Origin: a virus
IMG/VR virus record: IMGVR_UViG_3300024518_002903
Location: 1-26,252 of that record
Reading direction: 5' to 3' (one strand)
Length of the DNA stretch: 26,252 bases
The notes beneath the pieces are model-generated. The model was not told where the DNA came from, searched no databases, and saw only the letters and a list, made by a program, of their open reading frames with translations. Of this stretch, positions 9,065 to 18,118 are shown one piece after another; the first letter of the stretch is position 1; each line of letters begins with the position of its first letter. The position numbers and the translations under genes are program-made.

Positions 9065-9155
9065 CCTCCGTCCCTCCGAGGATCACGGGGAATCCGAGTC
9101 GGCTGACGACGAACGCGGCGACGAGGTCGGGGGCGTTGTAGACGAGCCACCTCAT
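9057..9155 (-). CDS. Very small hypothetical protein
   Basis: A 32-aa frame starts at ATG 9155, overlapping the stop of the ParB-methyltransferase gene (ATGA), and ends inside the start region of the small terminase gene. The peptide (MRWLVYNAPDLVAAFVV, then SRLGFPVILGGTEGG) is hydrophobic with one Arg in the middle. It keeps the unbroken chain of stop/start overlaps, which is the main reason to list it. The ribosome site is poor, with AAGG too close to the ATG. I do not recognise it. It could simply be a translational bridge to the terminase genes. Confidence 0.45.
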   Translation of the reverse strand: MRWLVYNAPDLVAAFVVSRLGFPVILGGTEGG

Positions 9156-10651
9156 ACCTTCGCCGCGACCGCGTTGGTCTGCGCCTCGCATCTCGAGAGG
9201 ACGATGTCGCAATACTTCGGGGACAGTTCTATCCCGAGGCACTCGCGACCGAGCGCGGCAGATGCGACCATCGTCGAGCCGCTCCCCATGAATGGATCGA
9301 ACACAACGTCCCCCGGATCGGTCAGGACGCGAATGAAAAAGTCTGGCATCGACACGGGGAACGCTGCAGGGTGGCCGAGCGCGTCCCTATTCTTTCCGAG
9401 CGTGAGGACGTTCGACGGGTAAGCCATGCCCCCGAGTAGATTGTCGGGGATCCCGCCGTTGTAGAGTCCCTTGCCCTGATTGTCGGCGAGTCGTCCCGCG
9501 TCCTTGTTGTTACGGTATCCCCCGGTCTTACCCTTCGTGCCCTGCTGTTCGTAGGTTCGCTCATTGTGACCTGCAGCTGTCTTGCGGGAGTCGACGCCCT
9601 TCCGCCTCATCCCCTCAGTGAATCCGTGTTCCTGTACGTCCTCCATGTTCGGATGGAGGCCGCTCCAGTCTGGGACGTCGTCGGTCGGGTGCATGACCCT
9701 GTCGGGGTAGAATTTGTGTCGGCCGCGAGCGAAGTGGAATATCGGCTCCCAACCGTTCTTGAATCGCTGCGCGGGGGTCTTGGGGGTTCCGCCATGCGAC
9801 CAGATAAACTCGTCGACGAACCGCCAGCCCCACTCCCTGACGTGAGCTAGGACGAGATCCCTGACGTAGAGAACGCGCTGCCCGTCCTCGCAGTGCTCCT
9901 TGATATTGACGAGCCATGATCCATCGTCCGACAGATTCCTCGAGACATTGTCGGCGACGTCTGCGAACCATTCGACGAACCGGTCAGGGTGTATCCCCTC
10001 GAACCCGCTCTCCGTGTCGTATTCGCGCTGCTGCGCGTAGGGGGGCGATGTGATCCCGAGCGTCACCTGGCGACCCTCGAGCAGGCGATCGACGTCCTCG
10101 CTCGAGGTGGCGTCCCCGCAGATGAGCCGATGCTTGCCGATCTGCCAGACGTCGCCCGGTTCGCATCGCTGCTCGGGCTCGGGTAGTGCGGAATGACCGG
10201 CTGATCCATCGTCGACCCCGAGATCCAGGGGCTCTTGGATGAGCTTGGCGAGCTCGTGATCGTCGAATCCCGTCATGGCGAGATCTGCACCCTCGGCCTC
10301 GAGACCCTTCAGGAGCTCGCGGAGGGGCGCGTCGTCCCAATCGCCAGAGATCCGGTTGAGCGCGAGGTTGAGCTGCTTCTCGCTGGGGTCGTCGAGGTCG
10401 ACCCACGCGACGGGGAGCGAATCGAGACCCTCGGCCTGCGCCGCCTTGACTCGCTGATGCCCGCCGACGATCCGACCGGTTCGGCGATTCGCGATGATCG
10501 GCTCGACGGCGCCAAAGAACCTCAGCGAGCGCCTCAGGGCGGCGAGGTCATGATCGTCGATCTTGCGAGGATTGTACGGCGCGGCCATTGACGCCAGCTC
10601 GGAGACTGGCATCGGCTCGACTTCTAGGCAGTCGGGCGCGGCCGACGTCAA
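9152..10651 (-). CDS. ParB-like domain fused to DNA methyltransferase (TSPPY, N6-adenine or N4-cytosine type)
   Basis: The product is 499 aa. Residues about 10-150 form a ParB/Srx-type N-terminal domain with NPRK and the nucleotide-binding motif GGHQR (63-67). Residues about 165-490 form an amino-methyltransferase with TSPPY (201-205, catalytic) ahead of the SAM-binding motif DPFMGSGST (about 452-460), the beta-class order. It likely methylates phage DNA against host restriction. A TTG at 10651 overlaps the upstream stop (TTGA) and has GAGG 7 nt before it; ATG 10612 is the alternative. It sits directly ahead of the terminase genes, a common phage placement. The methylated base and target site are not readable from sequence. 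Confidence 0.9.
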   Translation of the reverse strand: MTSAAPDCLEVEPMPVSELASMAAPYNPRKIDDHDLAALRRSLRFFGAVEPIIANRRTGRIVGGHQRVKAAQAEGLDSLPVAWVDLDDPSEKQLNLALNRISGDWDDAPLRELLKGLEAEGADLAMTGFDDHELAKLIQEPLDLGVDDGSAGHSALPEPEQRCEPGDVWQIGKHRLICGDATSSEDVDRLLEGRQVTLGITSPPYAQQREYDTESGFEGIHPDRFVEWFADVADNVSRNLSDDGSWLVNIKEHCEDGQRVLYVRDLVLAHVREWGWRFVDEFIWSHGGTPKTPAQRFKNGWEPIFHFARGRHKFYPDRVMHPTDDVPDWSGLHPNMEDVQEHGFTEGMRRKGVDSRKTAAGHNERTYEQQGTKGKTGGYRNNKDAGRLADNQGKGLYNGGIPDNLLGGMAYPSNVLTLGKNRDALGHPAAFPVSMPDFFIRVLTDPGDVVFDPFMGSGSTMVASAALGRECLGIELSPKYCDIVLSRCEAQTNAVAAKV

Positions 10652-11937: not shown

Positions 11938-12191
11938 TGTGCCGCCCTCCCCCTGTCGCAGCTCGTCCACCTGAGCGGGAGCTCGATCGTCGAGACCATC
12001 TGCGGGTGGACGCCGATCTTCAACATAAAGTGCTTCCAGATGCAAATGTAGCACTTCCGAGCGGGCGTCACCCCCTCATGCGGTCGGGGGAGCTCGTGCT
12101 GCGGTTCGCGTCGATCAAAGAACCTTCGGATCCTCATGTGACAGTCAGAGCAGTGTGTAATGATCTCGTGTCGATACCAAACGTCAGCCAT
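11934..12191 (-). CDS. Small CxxC-containing putative zinc-binding protein
   Basis: The product is 85 aa. It contains two Cys pairs, HCSDC (near residue 13) and KCYICIW (near residue 47), plus several His residues, consistent with a small zinc knuckle. The first pair lies in VWYRHEIITHCSDCHMRIR. The ATG at 12191 overlaps the end of the helicase-loader-like gene by 8 nt, and its stop forms a GTGA junction with the next gene. It may be a DNA- or protein-binding accessory factor. No family is recognised. Confidence 0.6.
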   Translation of the reverse strand: MADVWYRHEIITHCSDCHMRIRRFFDRREPQHELPRPHEGVTPARKCYICIWKHFMLKIGVHPQMVSTIELPLRWTSCDRGRAAQ

Positions 12192-12495
12192 CGTCTTTCA
12201 CCTCGGGGGATACGATCGGATTCAATCGGCGTCGCTCTCTGCGCTGCTCCTCGAATCGTTCGACTTGCAGTCTGCGCTGTCTCGCCTCATTGCACTTGGC
12301 GAGAAGCACCGCGAAAGGGGGAAAGGTTCCGTGTTCCCGCGTAGAGATCACGAGATCGATCCCCGCCTTGACGTCCCTGATCTTGAATCGATGTCCCCGC
12401 AGGGCATCGATATATTCTGCGGATCTTTCCGAGCTCGCGCCGCTAGGAAAGGCTCGAGCGAGCTTCGCCATGAGCTGATCTCGGACGTCAGTCAT
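12184..12495 (-). CDS. Helicase-loader-like small protein
   Basis: The product is 103 aa. A much longer open frame extends upstream, but its extra part is Arg/Ser-rich antisense noise; the ATG at 12495 overlaps the initiator stop by 8 nt (ATGACTGA). The layout (MTDVRDQLMAKLARAFP, AEYIDALRGHRFKIRDVKAGID, then FPPFAVLLAKCNEARQRR) resembles short phage proteins related to G39P/DnaI-type helicase loaders, which have two helices followed by a FPP-x-x-x-L-L segment. Placement directly after the replication initiator gene supports such a role. The assignment rests on pattern and context, not a catalytic motif. Confidence 0.55.
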   Translation of the reverse strand: MTDVRDQLMAKLARAFPSGASSERSAEYIDALRGHRFKIRDVKAGIDLVISTREHGTFPPFAVLLAKCNEARQRRLQVERFEEQRRERRRLNPIVSPEVKDDG

Positions 12496-13564
12496 CCCGA
12501 TCCCTTCGGGCCTTGGCGATCGCCTCGGCCGAGTTCGATTCGCGATCGATCTCAGCGAAGCTCTTGGCGCGGGTCGCGCCTGGCCGCGGATTGAGATCGC
12601 GTCTCCAGTATCGATGAGCGAGGGCTCTGATCTTGGCGAAGTTCTGGCGATCCGTCTCGAGCCCGAGGGCGGCGACCTCGCAGACGATGAGCTCGTAATT
12701 CTCATCGATCCAGTCCTCGAGCGTCTGGCCTGATTCGGAGATCGTCCCGAGCTTGGCGAGCATCGCAAATAGCCATTGTCCATCGACAGCCGAGAGAGCG
12801 CCCGCAGATGGGATGATCCCGTCAGGGCTGCTCGAGATCGTCGATCGTGGGCGAACCTCGAGATCGCGGGGGGATTTACCCTCGGGGTCGGGGATCGGGA
12901 CGAACCCCTCGAGGTCATGATCGGTCTCGCGTATGCTGGGGGGATCGTAATCGGCGAGATCGAGGTCGACGATCTTTCGGCCGACTCGCGACTGATGGAG
13001 ATCTTGATACAGGGTCTCGTCTGGATGGGCGCGGTCCCCGAGGATCTCGCGGTCGAGCTTCTCGGCCAGGGCGGCCGCGAGTCGGCGGTCACTCTCGATC
13101 AAGGCCTCGCGTAGACGGGGATCCATCGGCTCGAGCATCTCTGTATCAGGGGATCCGGATGGGTCGATCGGGGGTGTCGCGCTCTCTCTCGTAGAGAGAG
13201 CTTCTACTCTATTCTCCTCTATTCTAATGGTCGGAGCGAATCCCTGCAATTTCGACCAGTTAGAGACCTCTACCAGGTAGACGTCTCCGAGACGTCGCAG
13301 AGACGTCAACGAGACGTCTCCTAGACGTCTCATCGTAGCCTCGGCGTGGACGACCCTCTCGCGCCTGGCAAGGGCGCAGATCGAGCGTCGAGATAGGGAG
13401 ATCGATCCATCCTTGGAGTTGGCTCTCGAGAGCGCAGCGAGCAGATTGATAAAGAGCCGAAACGCGGCGTCGTCGATCTCGGAGATCTTTGGATCATCGA
13501 GGATGTCCTCTGTCAATCGGAACCAGGGACGATGATCGCTCGGGAATCGGCGCCTCTTGGCCAT
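12488..13564 (-). CDS. Replication initiator-like protein with N-terminal winged helix, containing a candidate origin
   Basis: The product is 358 aa. Residues about 12-110 look like the winged-helix domain of phage replisome organisers: WFRLTEDILDDPKISEIDD, FRLFINLLAALSRANS, SISLSRRSICALARR, and a wing ending YLVEVSNWSKLQG. A long variable Pro/Asp-rich middle and a helical C-terminal part (DGQWLFAMLAKLG, IRALAHRYWRRD) follow, the latter possibly contacting helicase or loader. It is the first leftward gene behind the promoter at 13581-13609, with a weak GGGGG ribosome site. Five regularly spaced GACGTC palindromes lie in its coding sequence, as in lambda O. The role is inferred from domain pattern, gene order and these repeats. 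Confidence 0.65.
   Translation of the reverse strand: MAKRRRFPSDHRPWFRLTEDILDDPKISEIDDAAFRLFINLLAALSRANSKDGSISLSRRSICALARRERVVHAEATMRRLGDVSLTSLRRLGDVYLVEVSNWSKLQGFAPTIRIEENRVEALSTRESATPPIDPSGSPDTEMLEPMDPRLREALIESDRRLAAALAEKLDREILGDRAHPDETLYQDLHQSRVGRKIVDLDLADYDPPSIRETDHDLEGFVPIPDPEGKSPRDLEVRPRSTISSSPDGIIPSAGALSAVDGQWLFAMLAKLGTISESGQTLEDWIDENYELIVCEVAALGLETDRQNFAKIRALAHRYWRRDLNPRPGATRAKSFAEIDRESNSAEAIAKARRDRDD
13181..13232. other. Candidate DNA-unwinding element: hairpin plus AT-richer direct repeat
   Basis: A perfect inverted repeat (GCTCTCTCT at 13181-13189, 3-nt spacer, AGAGAGAGC at 13193-13201) is followed by a pyrimidine-rich, AT-richer stretch holding two direct copies of CTCTATTCT (13207-13215 and 13217-13225, 10-bp period). 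Surrounding coding sequence is much more GC-rich. It lies about 50 bp from the iteron array in the same gene. By analogy with lambdoid and oriC-type origins, an easily melted repeat beside initiator-binding repeats fits a duplex-opening site. This is inference from layout. Confidence 0.45.
13280..13329. repeat. Iteron-like array: five GACGTC palindromes at 11-bp period
   Basis: GACGTC begins at 13280, 13291, 13302, 13313 and 13324, so each copy is exactly 11 bp from the last, about one helical turn. The spacers (tccga, gcaga, aacga, tccta) all end in A. The array lies inside the predicted initiator gene, just after the winged-helix-coding part. The 11-bp period is not a multiple of three, so protein repetition does not explain it; the peptide only repeats RRLGDV every 33 nt. 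Helically phased repeats in an initiator gene are typical of replication origins. Autoregulatory sites are an alternative. Confidence 0.6.
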
Positions 13565-15561: not shown

Positions 15562-16055
15562 TGCAGCTCTACAAGATCGCAGACGAGATCGAGCGAATCC
15601 TCGCGTCCGAGGTGGACCGCGAGACAGGTGAGATCTCGGACGAGACGCTTGAGAAGCTCGCAGAACTCGAGATGGGTCGCGACGCGAAAGCGCTCGCGGT
15701 CGCCGCGTACCTCAAGGGCGAGCTGGCCGAAGCGGAGGCCGGGAAGGTCGAAGCCGAGAAGCTCAAGAAGCGGGCGACCGTTCACGAGAACCGCGCGAAG
15801 CGGCTCGTCGAGTATCTCCAGAACTGCATTCCGCAGGGATCCGATCCTATCTCAGACGCTCGCTCTAAAATAGCTTGGCGGAAGAACCCGCCGAAGGTGT
15901 CGATCCCTGACGCCGAGGCAGTCCCGCCGAAGTTCCAGCGGGTCGTTCCCGAGACGCGGGCACCCGACAAGAAGGCGATCCTCGATGCGCTCAAGGCGGG
16001 CGCGTCGCTTCCGTTCGCGGTGCTCATGCGATCGAACCGGCTAGAGATCAAGTGA
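15561..16055 (+). CDS. Siphovirus Gp157-like protein
   Basis: The product is 164 aa. It has the Gp157 family layout: MQLYKIADEIERILA at the start, a long helical coiled coil rich in Glu/Ala/Lys (EAEAGKVEAEKLKKRATVHENRAKRL), then a short strand region KIAWRKNPPKVSIPD and an end region reading PETRAPDKKAILDAL and LMRSNRLEIK. The family occurs next to single-strand annealing or SSB genes in many siphoviruses and has been linked to phage resistance, though its biochemistry is unclear. It starts within the stop of the upstream gene (TGATG). Confidence 0.85.
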   Translation: MQLYKIADEIERILASEVDRETGEISDETLEKLAELEMGRDAKALAVAAYLKGELAEAEAGKVEAEKLKKRATVHENRAKRLVEYLQNCIPQGSDPISDARSKIAWRKNPPKVSIPDAEAVPPKFQRVVPETRAPDKKAILDALKAGASLPFAVLMRSNRLEIK

Positions 16056-16756
16056 TGGCGGTGCCCGAGCCGTACTACAAAGTTCTCGACAAGGGTGGCG
16101 AGGCGCTCTACGGCCGCGGGGCGTGGGGGTTGCCGCGCGGTAGTCGTCCAGGCTGCTGGGAGAAGGCTACGGGCGAACTCGCAGTCTGTCGAAACGGGCT
16201 CCATCTCTGCCGCCGGGGCGACTTGGTTCGTTGGCTCGGGCCGCGGATCTTCGAGGTCGAGACTCGCGGCGACGAGTTGATCGTATCGTCCGACAAGGTA
16301 GTCGTGCGCGAAGCCCGCCTAGTCCGTGAGTTGGCTTGGGACGAGAGGGTCGCGCGCCTATTCGTTGCGGACTGTGCTGAGCGGGTGCTCCCGATCTTCG
16401 AGGCACAATACCCCGACGACGATCGGCCCCGAATCGCGATCGAAATCGCGCGTCAGTTCGCGATGGGTGCTGTTGACGATGCCGCGAGGGCTGCCGCGGG
16501 GGATGCCGCGTGGGCTGCCGCGGCCGAAGCCGATGCCGATGCCGCGGCGCTCGCGACCGCGATGGCGGGGGCTGCCGCGTGGGCTGCCGCGTGGGCTGCC
16601 GCGGGGGATGCCGCGAGGGCGAGGTTTCCCGTGAGGGCTGCCGCGTGGGCTGCCGCGAGGGCGAGGTTTCCCGTGAGGGCTGCCGCGTGGGCGGCCGCGG
16701 GGAGGGCTGCGTGGGCTTGGCAAACCGAGCGTCTGTTCGAGTACCTCGGAAAGTGA
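16055..16756 (+). CDS. DUF7666-like protein with Ala/Trp-rich helical repeats
   Basis: The product is 233 aa. Residues about 1-95 match the DUF7666-like layout of phage proteins: LDKGGEALYG, ELAVCRNGLHLCRRGDLVRWLG, IFEVETRGDELIV and KVVVREARLVREL. From about residue 135 the chain becomes Ala-rich helical repeats built on AAAWAA and AARAR units, ending WQTERLFEYL. The repeat part looks like a regular helical solenoid. A 42-bp tandem duplication lies inside it. The ATG at 16055 overlaps the upstream stop (TGATG); a GTG one codon earlier is possible. Function unknown; similar proteins recur in actinobacterial and other phages. Confidence 0.65.
   Translation: MAVPEPYYKVLDKGGEALYGRGAWGLPRGSRPGCWEKATGELAVCRNGLHLCRRGDLVRWLGPRIFEVETRGDELIVSSDKVVVREARLVRELAWDERVARLFVADCAERVLPIFEAQYPDDDRPRIAIEIARQFAMGAVDDAARAAAGDAAWAAAAEADADAAALATAMAGAAAWAAAWAAAGDAARARFPVRAAAWAAARARFPVRAAAWAAAGRAAWAWQTERLFEYLGK
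16610..16693 (+). repeat. 42-bp tandem duplication in the Ala/Trp-rich gene
   Basis: Two adjacent 42-bp units (16610-16651 and 16652-16693) differ only at the last base. Each encodes AARARFPVRAAAWA, so the frame is kept. It lies in a longer stretch (about 16484-16711) built from imperfect GCTGCCGCG(T/G)GGG units. Near-identity of the 42-bp units shows a recent duplication by slippage or unequal recombination, while the shorter units are older and diverged. Length variation between related phages is expected here. Confidence 0.85.
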
Positions 16757-17187: not shown

Positions 17188-17375
17188 GCGCACGTTTGCT
17201 ATTCGCGCTCGGGCTGCTCGGCCTCGTGGGCATGGTGGTCGCGACCCTAGTGGGGGCACGGATTCTGGACGACCGCTGGCAGGCGAGTAAGGCGCGATTT
17301 AAGCGACCAGACGGCCCGCCGCGGACGCTGCTGGAGGGGGAGCCGGACGGGCAGCCGGTCAAGTGGAAGTGGTAA
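17184..17375 (+). CDS. Small single-pass membrane protein
   Basis: The product is 63 aa from the GTG at 17184, which overlaps the stop of the Fn3 gene (GTGA). One hydrophobic segment (LLFALGLLGLVGMVVATLVGA) is followed by a basic tail (DDRWQASKARFKRPDG) ending PVKWKW. It is most likely an inner-membrane peptide. Its end carries the ribosome site for the overlapping methyltransferase-region frames, and its stop is followed directly by an ATG (TAAATG). A role in host takeover or exclusion is possible but not shown. Confidence 0.6.
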   Translation: MSARLLFALGLLGLVGMVVATLVGARILDDRWQASKARFKRPDGPPRTLLEGEPDGQPVKWKW

Positions 17376-18118
17376 ATGGCGTGGCTCTACGTCCCATCAC
17401 GGGGCTCGCACTTTGTGCCGGGGTTGGAGGACTCGAGCTTGGGCTCAAGCTCGCCCTGGGAGAGCGATACCGAACTGTCTGTTACGTCGAGCGGGACGCC
17501 TACGCAGCGAGCGTCCTCGTGGCGAGGATGGCAGACAAGGCCCTGGATTCGGCTCCTATCTGGGACGATCTCGAATCCTTCGACGGCAGATGGTTCCGCT
17601 CGACAGTGGATATTGTCTCTGCGGGGTTCCCGTGTCAGCCAGCAAGCACAGCAGGAAAGCGTAAGGGCGACCGAGACGAACGCTGGGTCTGGCCTCTCAT
17701 TACAGACATTCTTCGCGACACGCGACCGCGAGTTATTTTTCTGGAAAACGTGCGTGGACTCATCCAATGCGGACTCGCCCAGGTTCTCGGATCGCTGGCC
17801 GATCTCGGGTTCGATGTGGAGTGGGGAATGTTCAAAGCGTCCGAGGTTGGAGCGCCGCACTTCCGACCCAGGGTGTTCATTCTTGCCCACTCCCGCAGCG
17901 AGCCCCTACGGATCGAACCGGGGCGGGGGGGCGGGCAGGATCGGGAAGATCCGCCTGAGCCTGCGCGGGATTTTCGGTGGTCCCGAGAACCCGGAATACA
18001 TCGAGTGGATGATGGGACTCCCTACAGGGTGGACCGACTGCGATGCCTCGGGAACGCCGTGGTTCCCCAGCAAGCCGCGCTCGCCTTCCGAGAGCTCTGG
18101 GGGCGGATAGCGACATGA
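17363..18118 (+). CDS. C5-cytosine DNA methyltransferase, compact form
   Basis: The product is 251 aa. It shows C5-methyltransferase motifs in order: motif I GLALCAGVGGLE (14-25), CYVERD, motif IV GFPCQP with the catalytic Cys (C91), motif VI FLENV (126-130), motif VIII HFRPRVF (166-172) and motif IX/X RLRCLGNAVVPQ (225-236). Only about 45 residues separate motifs VIII and IX, so the target recognition region is very short for the family. It likely protects phage DNA from restriction. The frame is open from GTG 17363, but GTG 17381 is equally possible. Its DNA is also open in a second frame (17376-18110) with motifs of its own. Confidence 0.82.
   Translation: MEVVNGVALRPITGLALCAGVGGLELGLKLALGERYRTVCYVERDAYAASVLVARMADKALDSAPIWDDLESFDGRWFRSTVDIVSAGFPCQPASTAGKRKGDRDERWVWPLITDILRDTRPRVIFLENVRGLIQCGLAQVLGSLADLGFDVEWGMFKASEVGAPHFRPRVFILAHSRSEPLRIEPGRGGGQDREDPPEPARDFRWSREPGIHRVDDGTPYRVDRLRCLGNAVVPQQAALAFRELWGRIAT
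17376..18110 (+). CDS. Overlapping second-frame protein within the C5 methyltransferase gene
   Basis: A 244-aa frame runs nearly the full length of the methyltransferase gene. It has the better start of the two: an ATG right after the previous stop (TAAATG) with GGAAG 6 nt upstream. Its sequence resembles a recurrent phage hypothetical family: MAWLYVP near the start, SSWRGWQTRPWIRLLSGT, RWPISGSMWSGECSKRP, LPTPAASPYGSNRGGGAGR and NPEYIEWMMGLPTGWTDCD. The last two are segments that in other phage C5 methyltransferases, as I recall, sit in the recognition region. Either both frames are translated, or this frame preserves pieces of an ancestral methyltransferase. A pure shadow is possible because the other frame is constrained. 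Confidence 0.45.
   Translation: MAWLYVPSRGSHFVPGLEDSSLGSSSPWESDTELSVTSSGTPTQRASSWRGWQTRPWIRLLSGTISNPSTADGSARQWILSLRGSRVSQQAQQESVRATETNAGSGLSLQTFFATRDRELFFWKTCVDSSNADSPRFSDRWPISGSMWSGECSKRPRLERRTSDPGCSFLPTPAASPYGSNRGGGAGRIGKIRLSLRGIFGGPENPEYIEWMMGLPTGWTDCDASGTPWFPSKPRSPSESSGGG

Follow-up and report, generated by a model that had tools for sequence, protein, structure and literature searches.

In lambda and in Stx phages, the replication origin lies inside the initiator gene O, where iterons are followed by an AT-rich region, as described in the available parts of two reports (PMC6022878; PMC7466680). In lactococcal phages of the P335 group, the replisome organizers ORF16 (Rep2009) of Tuc2009 and ORF13 of TP901-1 bind direct repeats within their own genes, and these repeats constitute the origin, according to the portion of the source available (PMC8965321). 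Recognition of a short palindrome has been proposed for RptR, a bacterial bZIP-like repressor whose dimer is predicted to occupy a single major groove at a 6-bp palindrome; TodS is cited as an earlier case (PMC12255303, available in part).

The DNA considered here (the window, meaning the whole stretch of 26,252 bases of a virus record) belongs to a tailed phage, with recognised genes for the portal, terminase and major head proteins. The features that bear on replication are the following.

12184..12493, minus strand: short ORF that overlaps the stop codon of the initiator gene; helicase-loader candidate by position only
12488..13564, minus strand: initiator gene, 358 aa; ORF with a PHROG 3926 match and an AlphaFold2 winged-helix N-terminal domain (aa ~13-106)
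13181..13201, no strand: perfect 9-bp inverted repeat with a 3-nt loop (arms 13181-13189 and 13193-13201)
13202..13226, minus strand: AT-rich purine tract, AGAATAGAG twice plus AGAGTAGA; candidate DNA-unwinding element
13279..13329, minus strand: five GACGTCT iterons at exact 11-bp spacing; codons 79-95 of the initiator gene

Elsewhere in the window, a ParB_N domain fused to an N6/N4 DNA methyltransferase is encoded at 9152-10651, another DNA methyltransferase (PHROG 363) at 17363-18118, and, at 16052-16756, a protein with repeated AAAWAAARARFPVR-like segments that matches PHROG 18326, of unknown function.

The 358-aa protein is, by profile match and structural model, a winged-helix phage initiator. 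Its match to the PHROG 3926 replication initiation protein is weak (E 4.8e-5) and covers aa 11-90 only; the Pfam scan gave no family match, and the PHROG scan returned only 3926 and 1882, with neither the lambda-O family nor the PHROG 9474 profile among its matches. The AlphaFold2 model, built on a four-sequence alignment, has a winged helix with a pLDDT of ~77-87 across aa 21-100, the rest being of low confidence; aa 109-148 form a low-confidence coil, without the basic helix of the PHROG 9474 type after HDWxxYAG. The segment N118..R126 was considered as a basic motif and rejected, as the likeness is vague, the segment is not basic and it is modelled as coil. Foldseek searches with the model gave a best E of 8.8e-3 and mostly winged-helix regulators with some ribosome entries; a PDB sequence search gave no match, and no relatives were found among annotated phages. 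The short ORF at 12184..12493 matched neither Pfam nor PHROG.

Five GACGTC palindromes at an exact 11-bp period within the initiator gene had been reported in an earlier note on this DNA, and the observation holds well beyond shuffles. The copies start at 13280, 13291, 13302, 13313 and 13324, in steps of exactly 11 bp; the conserved unit of the array, read on the coding strand, is the 7-bp GACGTCT, which holds the 6-bp palindrome. Single GACGTC sites are common, since the whole window has 29 against 20 +/- 4.6 in shuffles. The array is uncommon: at periods of 8-14, no other 6-mer in the window makes so long a chain (5 copies versus 2 or 3 in 30 first-order Markov shuffles). Within the initiator gene, 6-mer pairs at distance 11 number 13 against a mean of 1.0 in synonymous-codon shuffles, which preserve protein and codon usage, and none of 300 such shuffles reaches 13. 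The count of 5-mer pairs at 11 bp is 19 in the initiator gene (0/200 shuffles) and 0-2 in eight other genes of the window, none of them above shuffles. The five iterons start at codon positions 1, 0, 2, 1 and 0, spelling one DNA word in three reading frames; because GACGTC copies fall in all three codon positions, the DNA word is kept and not a peptide. In the AlphaFold2 model, codons 79-95 cover the last part of helix 71-83 and run into the first part of the wing hairpin (strands 87-92 and 95-100), and the repeat spells a folded part of the protein that presumably contacts DNA.

In the direction of the gene, the five GACGTCT units (13329 to 13279) are followed after ~50 bp by the purine tract and then directly by the hairpin (13201-13181). 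The tract reads AGAATAGAG-G-AGAATAGAG-T-AGAAG from 13225; the duplicated CTCTATTCT (13207-13215 and 13217-13225) in an AT-richer tract and the perfect 9-bp hairpin are as previously described. The AT-richest 40-bp segments of the initiator gene begin at 13189 and 13192 (37.5% GC; 60 of 26212 such segments in the window are as low), and the AT-rich region at 13189-13232 sits ~50 bp from the array. AGARTAGA occurs three times in the window, always within the purine tract (expected 0.47; 2 of 100 shuffles reach 3), and AGAGTAGA-type tracts also lie downstream of the iterons in the initiator genes of Lagaffe, Shimadzu and nd4; the confinement of AGARTAGA to the tract and the recurrence of AGAGTAGA-type tracts in these phages support the purine tract as part of the putative origin. 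Perfect 9-bp hairpins with loops of 3-8 nt number only two in the window, the second lying inside the array itself. The lambda-type arrangement proposed for the locus stands in part: initiator gene, iterons, AT-rich tract and hairpin follow the lambda order, in which a hairpin lies beyond the AT region, but the protein belongs outside that family by the PHROG search. The cumulative GC skew, suggested as a check, does not point to the array, as its shallow minimum (-42) falls at 12507, near the end of the initiator gene and 0.8 kb off, on a 26-kb fragment where the measure is confounded by gene strand changes.

Two scans of IMG/VR gave only four loci related to the window gene. One of them (L004, on the same contig as L011) is the window's sibling, with an identical initiator gene, and is the sole close relative known. 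Among the others, L005 (44% identity) carries ACTCCG/AGTCCG four times at 11, 11 and 11 bp and L259 (31% identity) carries ACTCCG six times at 11, 11, 12, 12 and 11 bp. In both, the iterons come right behind the winged helix and precede CCTACC- or CCTAAACC-type repeats; their 5-mer pairs at 11 bp are reached by 0/200 and 1/200 shuffles, respectively. L006 (40% identity) has short tandem repeats and lacks a clear 11-bp array (11 bp reached by 22/200 shuffles, 10 bp by 0/200). Phasing at ~11 bp persists in two of the three diverged relatives where iteron word, peptide and place change. The earlier note had taken conservation of the peptide with loss of the 11-bp phasing in related initiator genes as a sign against an origin; the opposite was found, since both in these two relatives and in a sister family the ~11-bp spacing is kept where word and peptide change.

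The sister family is PHROG 9474, for which a first set of 80 loci was reduced to 59 nonredundant genes with a CDS of at least 400 nt; a PHROG 9474 search in 391 genomes of one class gave 14 matches, which did not enter the counts. In the 59 genes, 5-mer pairs at 11 bp number 445 against 94.6 +/- 13.1 in synonymous shuffles, and 11 bp has the highest excess among periods of 4-45, followed by 22, 10 and 5 bp. By eye, iterons followed by short repeats such as CCTAACC occupy the linker after HDWxxYAG. The tandem CCTAACC/CAACC repeats that follow the iterons in L179-L258 appear by eye more uniform than the iterons themselves, and in L206, L210, L216 and L344 an apparent HNH nuclease segment (CRYCG...WKDR...TYDH), also noted by eye, occupies the place after HDWxxYAG where others have iterons. 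Shuffle tests on named phages found both 10- and 11-bp phasing, and a member with neither. Paenibacillus phage Harrison, with GTCAC words and CCTAACC repeats, has significant pairs at 10 bp (0/200) and not at 11 bp (52/200), Faecalibacterium phage Lagaffe is phased at 10 bp (0/200), and phage nd4 at both 10 and 11 bp (0/200). Phasing at 11 bp was obtained for Microcystis phage Mae-JY24 (1/200), Synechococcus phage Sc-Yong805-2 (0/200) and Roseburia phage Shimadzu (5/200), and neither period for Faecalibacterium phage Brigit. Short phased iterons, called unusually short and dense in the earlier note, are thus recurrent in many phage initiators.

In PHROG 9474 a basic helix grows out of the winged-helix domain: the model of L179 (mean pLDDT 80) has one unbroken helix, 94-126, that leaves the winged helix just after the wing, includes a basic segment and leads into a low-confidence linker, the site of the iterons. 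Foldseek with this model gave the DnaD-like C-domain 2zc2 (E 0.2, probability 1.00). The residues at positions 0, +4 and +7 of the basic segment define a motif class, which was compared with the iteron class counted within 180 bp past the codons of the motif itself. A second set of 134 new loci contributed 30 nonredundant and new genes, for a total of 89, from which 14 without an anchored motif, 10 outside the four classes and 10 without an iteron call were removed to leave 55. The four iteron words and the motif classes were fixed on the first 59 genes, ahead of the retrieval of the other 30; the counting rule was written with those 30 already seen. A looser motif finder (52/55) misplaced some motifs, such as that of L180, and the anchored finder, which requires R/K at +3 and R at +8, was used instead.

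Motif class predicts iteron class in 53 of the 55 called genes, with L219 and L349 as exceptions (35/36 in the first set and 18/19 in the later-fetched set), as against a mean agreement of 14.9 and a maximum of 29 in 20,000 permutations. The pairings are N..RK..S with GTCAC, an aromatic residue at +7 with GTAAC, N..RM with CGTGC, and D..RK with CGTCC. Among genes matched for identity in the N-terminal domain, those with a common motif had a common iteron much more frequently than those whose motifs differed; at 40-50% identity, with the looser motif finder, the iteron was shared in 94 of 103 same-motif pairs versus 12 of 329 different-motif pairs. Mutual information with iteron class, over 60 protein columns and 53 genes (L193 and L214, with N, were excluded from alignment A7), is highest at L179 residues 108 (z 20), 112 (z 17) and 115 (z 9.5), the next column reaching z 6. 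Invariance at +3 and +8 in this test is by construction, because the anchored rule demands these residues; in a 57-row alignment built without that rule, conservation of R111 (+3) is at least 90%. Iteron word and the protein segment that would read it apparently change in step.

On a tree of the N-terminal domain with 55 rows, motif class and iteron class each change at least 20 times, and support is good for only 7 of 51 inner branches, leaving only 1-2 independent pairs per contrast on supported branches; with so few well-supported branches, phylogenetic independence of the switches is suggested rather than proven. Cassette exchange could add to the association, since motif and iterons are near neighbours in one gene. 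The NAERKRRSRARH segment of L181 presumably resembles Gcn4, and a spacing of 0, +4 and +7 belongs to the full bZIP contact register. The covariation peaks at 0, +4 and +7 of one basic helix match this spacing of contact residues. Base contacts by bZIP proteins have been described for Ala238/Ala239 of Gcn4 and for an Asn of Pap1 in the part of the source available (PMC3865217).

Searching viral contigs for the exact pattern of three GACGTC copies phased at 11 bp returned 20 stretches. Seven of them lie in genes with an initiator-PHROG match (L007, L011, L018, L020, L023, L025 and L026); L011 is counted through its identity to the window gene, and the match of L026 is weak (E 1e-4). L021 repeats the L018 sequence, was not scanned and is extra to the seven, and L013 is initiator-like in appearance without a PHROG match. 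Several AT-rich contigs (L009, L010, L012, L014-L017, L022 and L024) have GACGTC arrays of 3-4 copies at 11 bp that are mostly non-coding, those of L009, L010, L015, L016 and L024 lying near a GTTATCCACAG-like (DnaA-box-like) sequence. With GTCGAC as control word, again in three copies at 11 bp, six of 20 stretches fall in genes matching initiator, loader or primosomal PHROGs (L029, L033, L034, L038, L042 and L045; L039 repeats L033 and is extra). Three GACGTC copies at 10 bp gave no PHROG-supported initiator ORF in 12 stretches, three of which are initiator-like by eye (L047, L052 and L056). A genome scan found at least 118 stretches with GACGTC arrays, mostly repeats of GC-rich chromosomes, and among the 80 loci listed none of 76 scanned ORFs matched an initiator PHROG. 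A special role of GACGTC as a word is ruled out by the presence of GTCGAC arrays in initiator genes; together the scans and their controls indicate that short phased words, rather than a specific hexamer, are the general trait of initiator genes.

The best reading of the locus is an in-gene origin recognised by its own product, and it is quite likely that the array comprises the initiator-binding iterons of a phage replication origin placed inside the initiator's own gene. Initiator molecules would occupy the array on the same DNA face, one per helical turn, forming a compact filament. Melting would take place in the neighbouring AT-rich purine tract, behind which the hairpin lies, and the C-terminal part of the initiator or the product of the next gene would load the host helicase. 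The winged helix, named as the binder in the earlier note, is only a candidate for that role: the element that covaries with the iteron in the sister family is the basic helix beyond the wing, absent from the window's protein. For the window, anatomy and comparison suggest such a filament, and from these we infer binding by the window's protein, melting, helicase loading and origin activity. The layout of phased iterons followed by short tandem repeats recurs in related and sister initiator genes; the difference in iteron word and place between the window and its relatives counts against an origin, as do the missing clear array in L006, the 10-bp control scan and the genome scan with no PHROG-supported initiator ORF, and the distance of the GC-skew minimum.

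A regulatory site, serving as an operator or for silencing, for the initiator or another phage regulator, is an unlikely alternative: dimer-bound short palindromes are typical of operators, and RptR represses via 6-bp palindromes (PMC12255303, available in part), yet the array lies 235-290 bp within the initiator gene, phased copies are found neither near the start of that gene nor elsewhere in the window, and this arrangement, melting-type tract included, is found again in initiator genes. It is highly improbable that the array is a packaging (pac) or partition site that happens to fall in the initiator gene, given that the large-terminase gene is 4-5 kb away and that the arrays of other phages fall in initiator genes. 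In-gene phased repeats are possible for such sites, as in SPP1 pac and plasmid parS arrays, and the ParB_N-methyltransferase fusion is encoded nearby. Equally improbable is a by-product of internal peptide duplication (RRLGDVSLTSL / RRLGDVYLVEV, a repeat of 33 bp, or 3 x 11), which is rejected as the source by the loss of the 11-bp signal in synonymous shuffles that preserve the peptide (0/300), by the occurrence of the word in three frames and by relatives with other peptides that are still in phase.

The in-gene origin may be part of a wider pattern, to which we would give slightly less than an even chance. Tailed-phage initiators would carry a self-specific in-gene origin code of helical-turn-phased iterons, in which iterons and the bZIP-like helix of the sister family switch jointly and the melting tract is retained; the window would be a derived case, its iterons moved into the codons of the DNA-binding wing. 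One DNA stretch would be under double selection, for a folded wing and for binding sites, and the sister family would supply a natural series pairing changes in protein residues with changes in the DNA word that these read. Such arrays could offer a sequence-only route to the replication origins of uncultured phages and, if confirmed, would mean that phage replication initiators use a bZIP-like recognition helix and that origin specificity can be predicted from sequence.

Compared with known systems, the window resembles lambda O and ori-lambda in having repeated sites within the gene and an AT-rich region beside them. Unlike the four 18-bp hyphenated inverted repeats of lambda, its iterons are five 7-bp direct words at 11 bp, and its initiator, again unlike that of lambda, is outside the lambda-O family. 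The P335 replisome organizers, as far as the available source describes them, share with the proposed origin the placement of repeats within the initiator's own gene. PHROG 9474 initiators, such as gp65 of Paenibacillus phage Harrison, likewise combine a winged helix, phased iterons and short tandem repeats in one gene; there a basic helix precedes the linker that contains the iterons, whereas the window's iterons lie in wing codons of a protein without such a helix. RptR, a transcription repressor rather than an initiator, is similar by description only, in the 6-bp palindrome, in the part of its source available. A literature search that covered few subscription journals, with sources available in part, returned nothing on phased hexamer iterons or on a bZIP-like helix in phage initiators. 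Origins within the initiator gene are already known from lambda, Tuc2009 and TP901-1; the phased hexamer code looks new.
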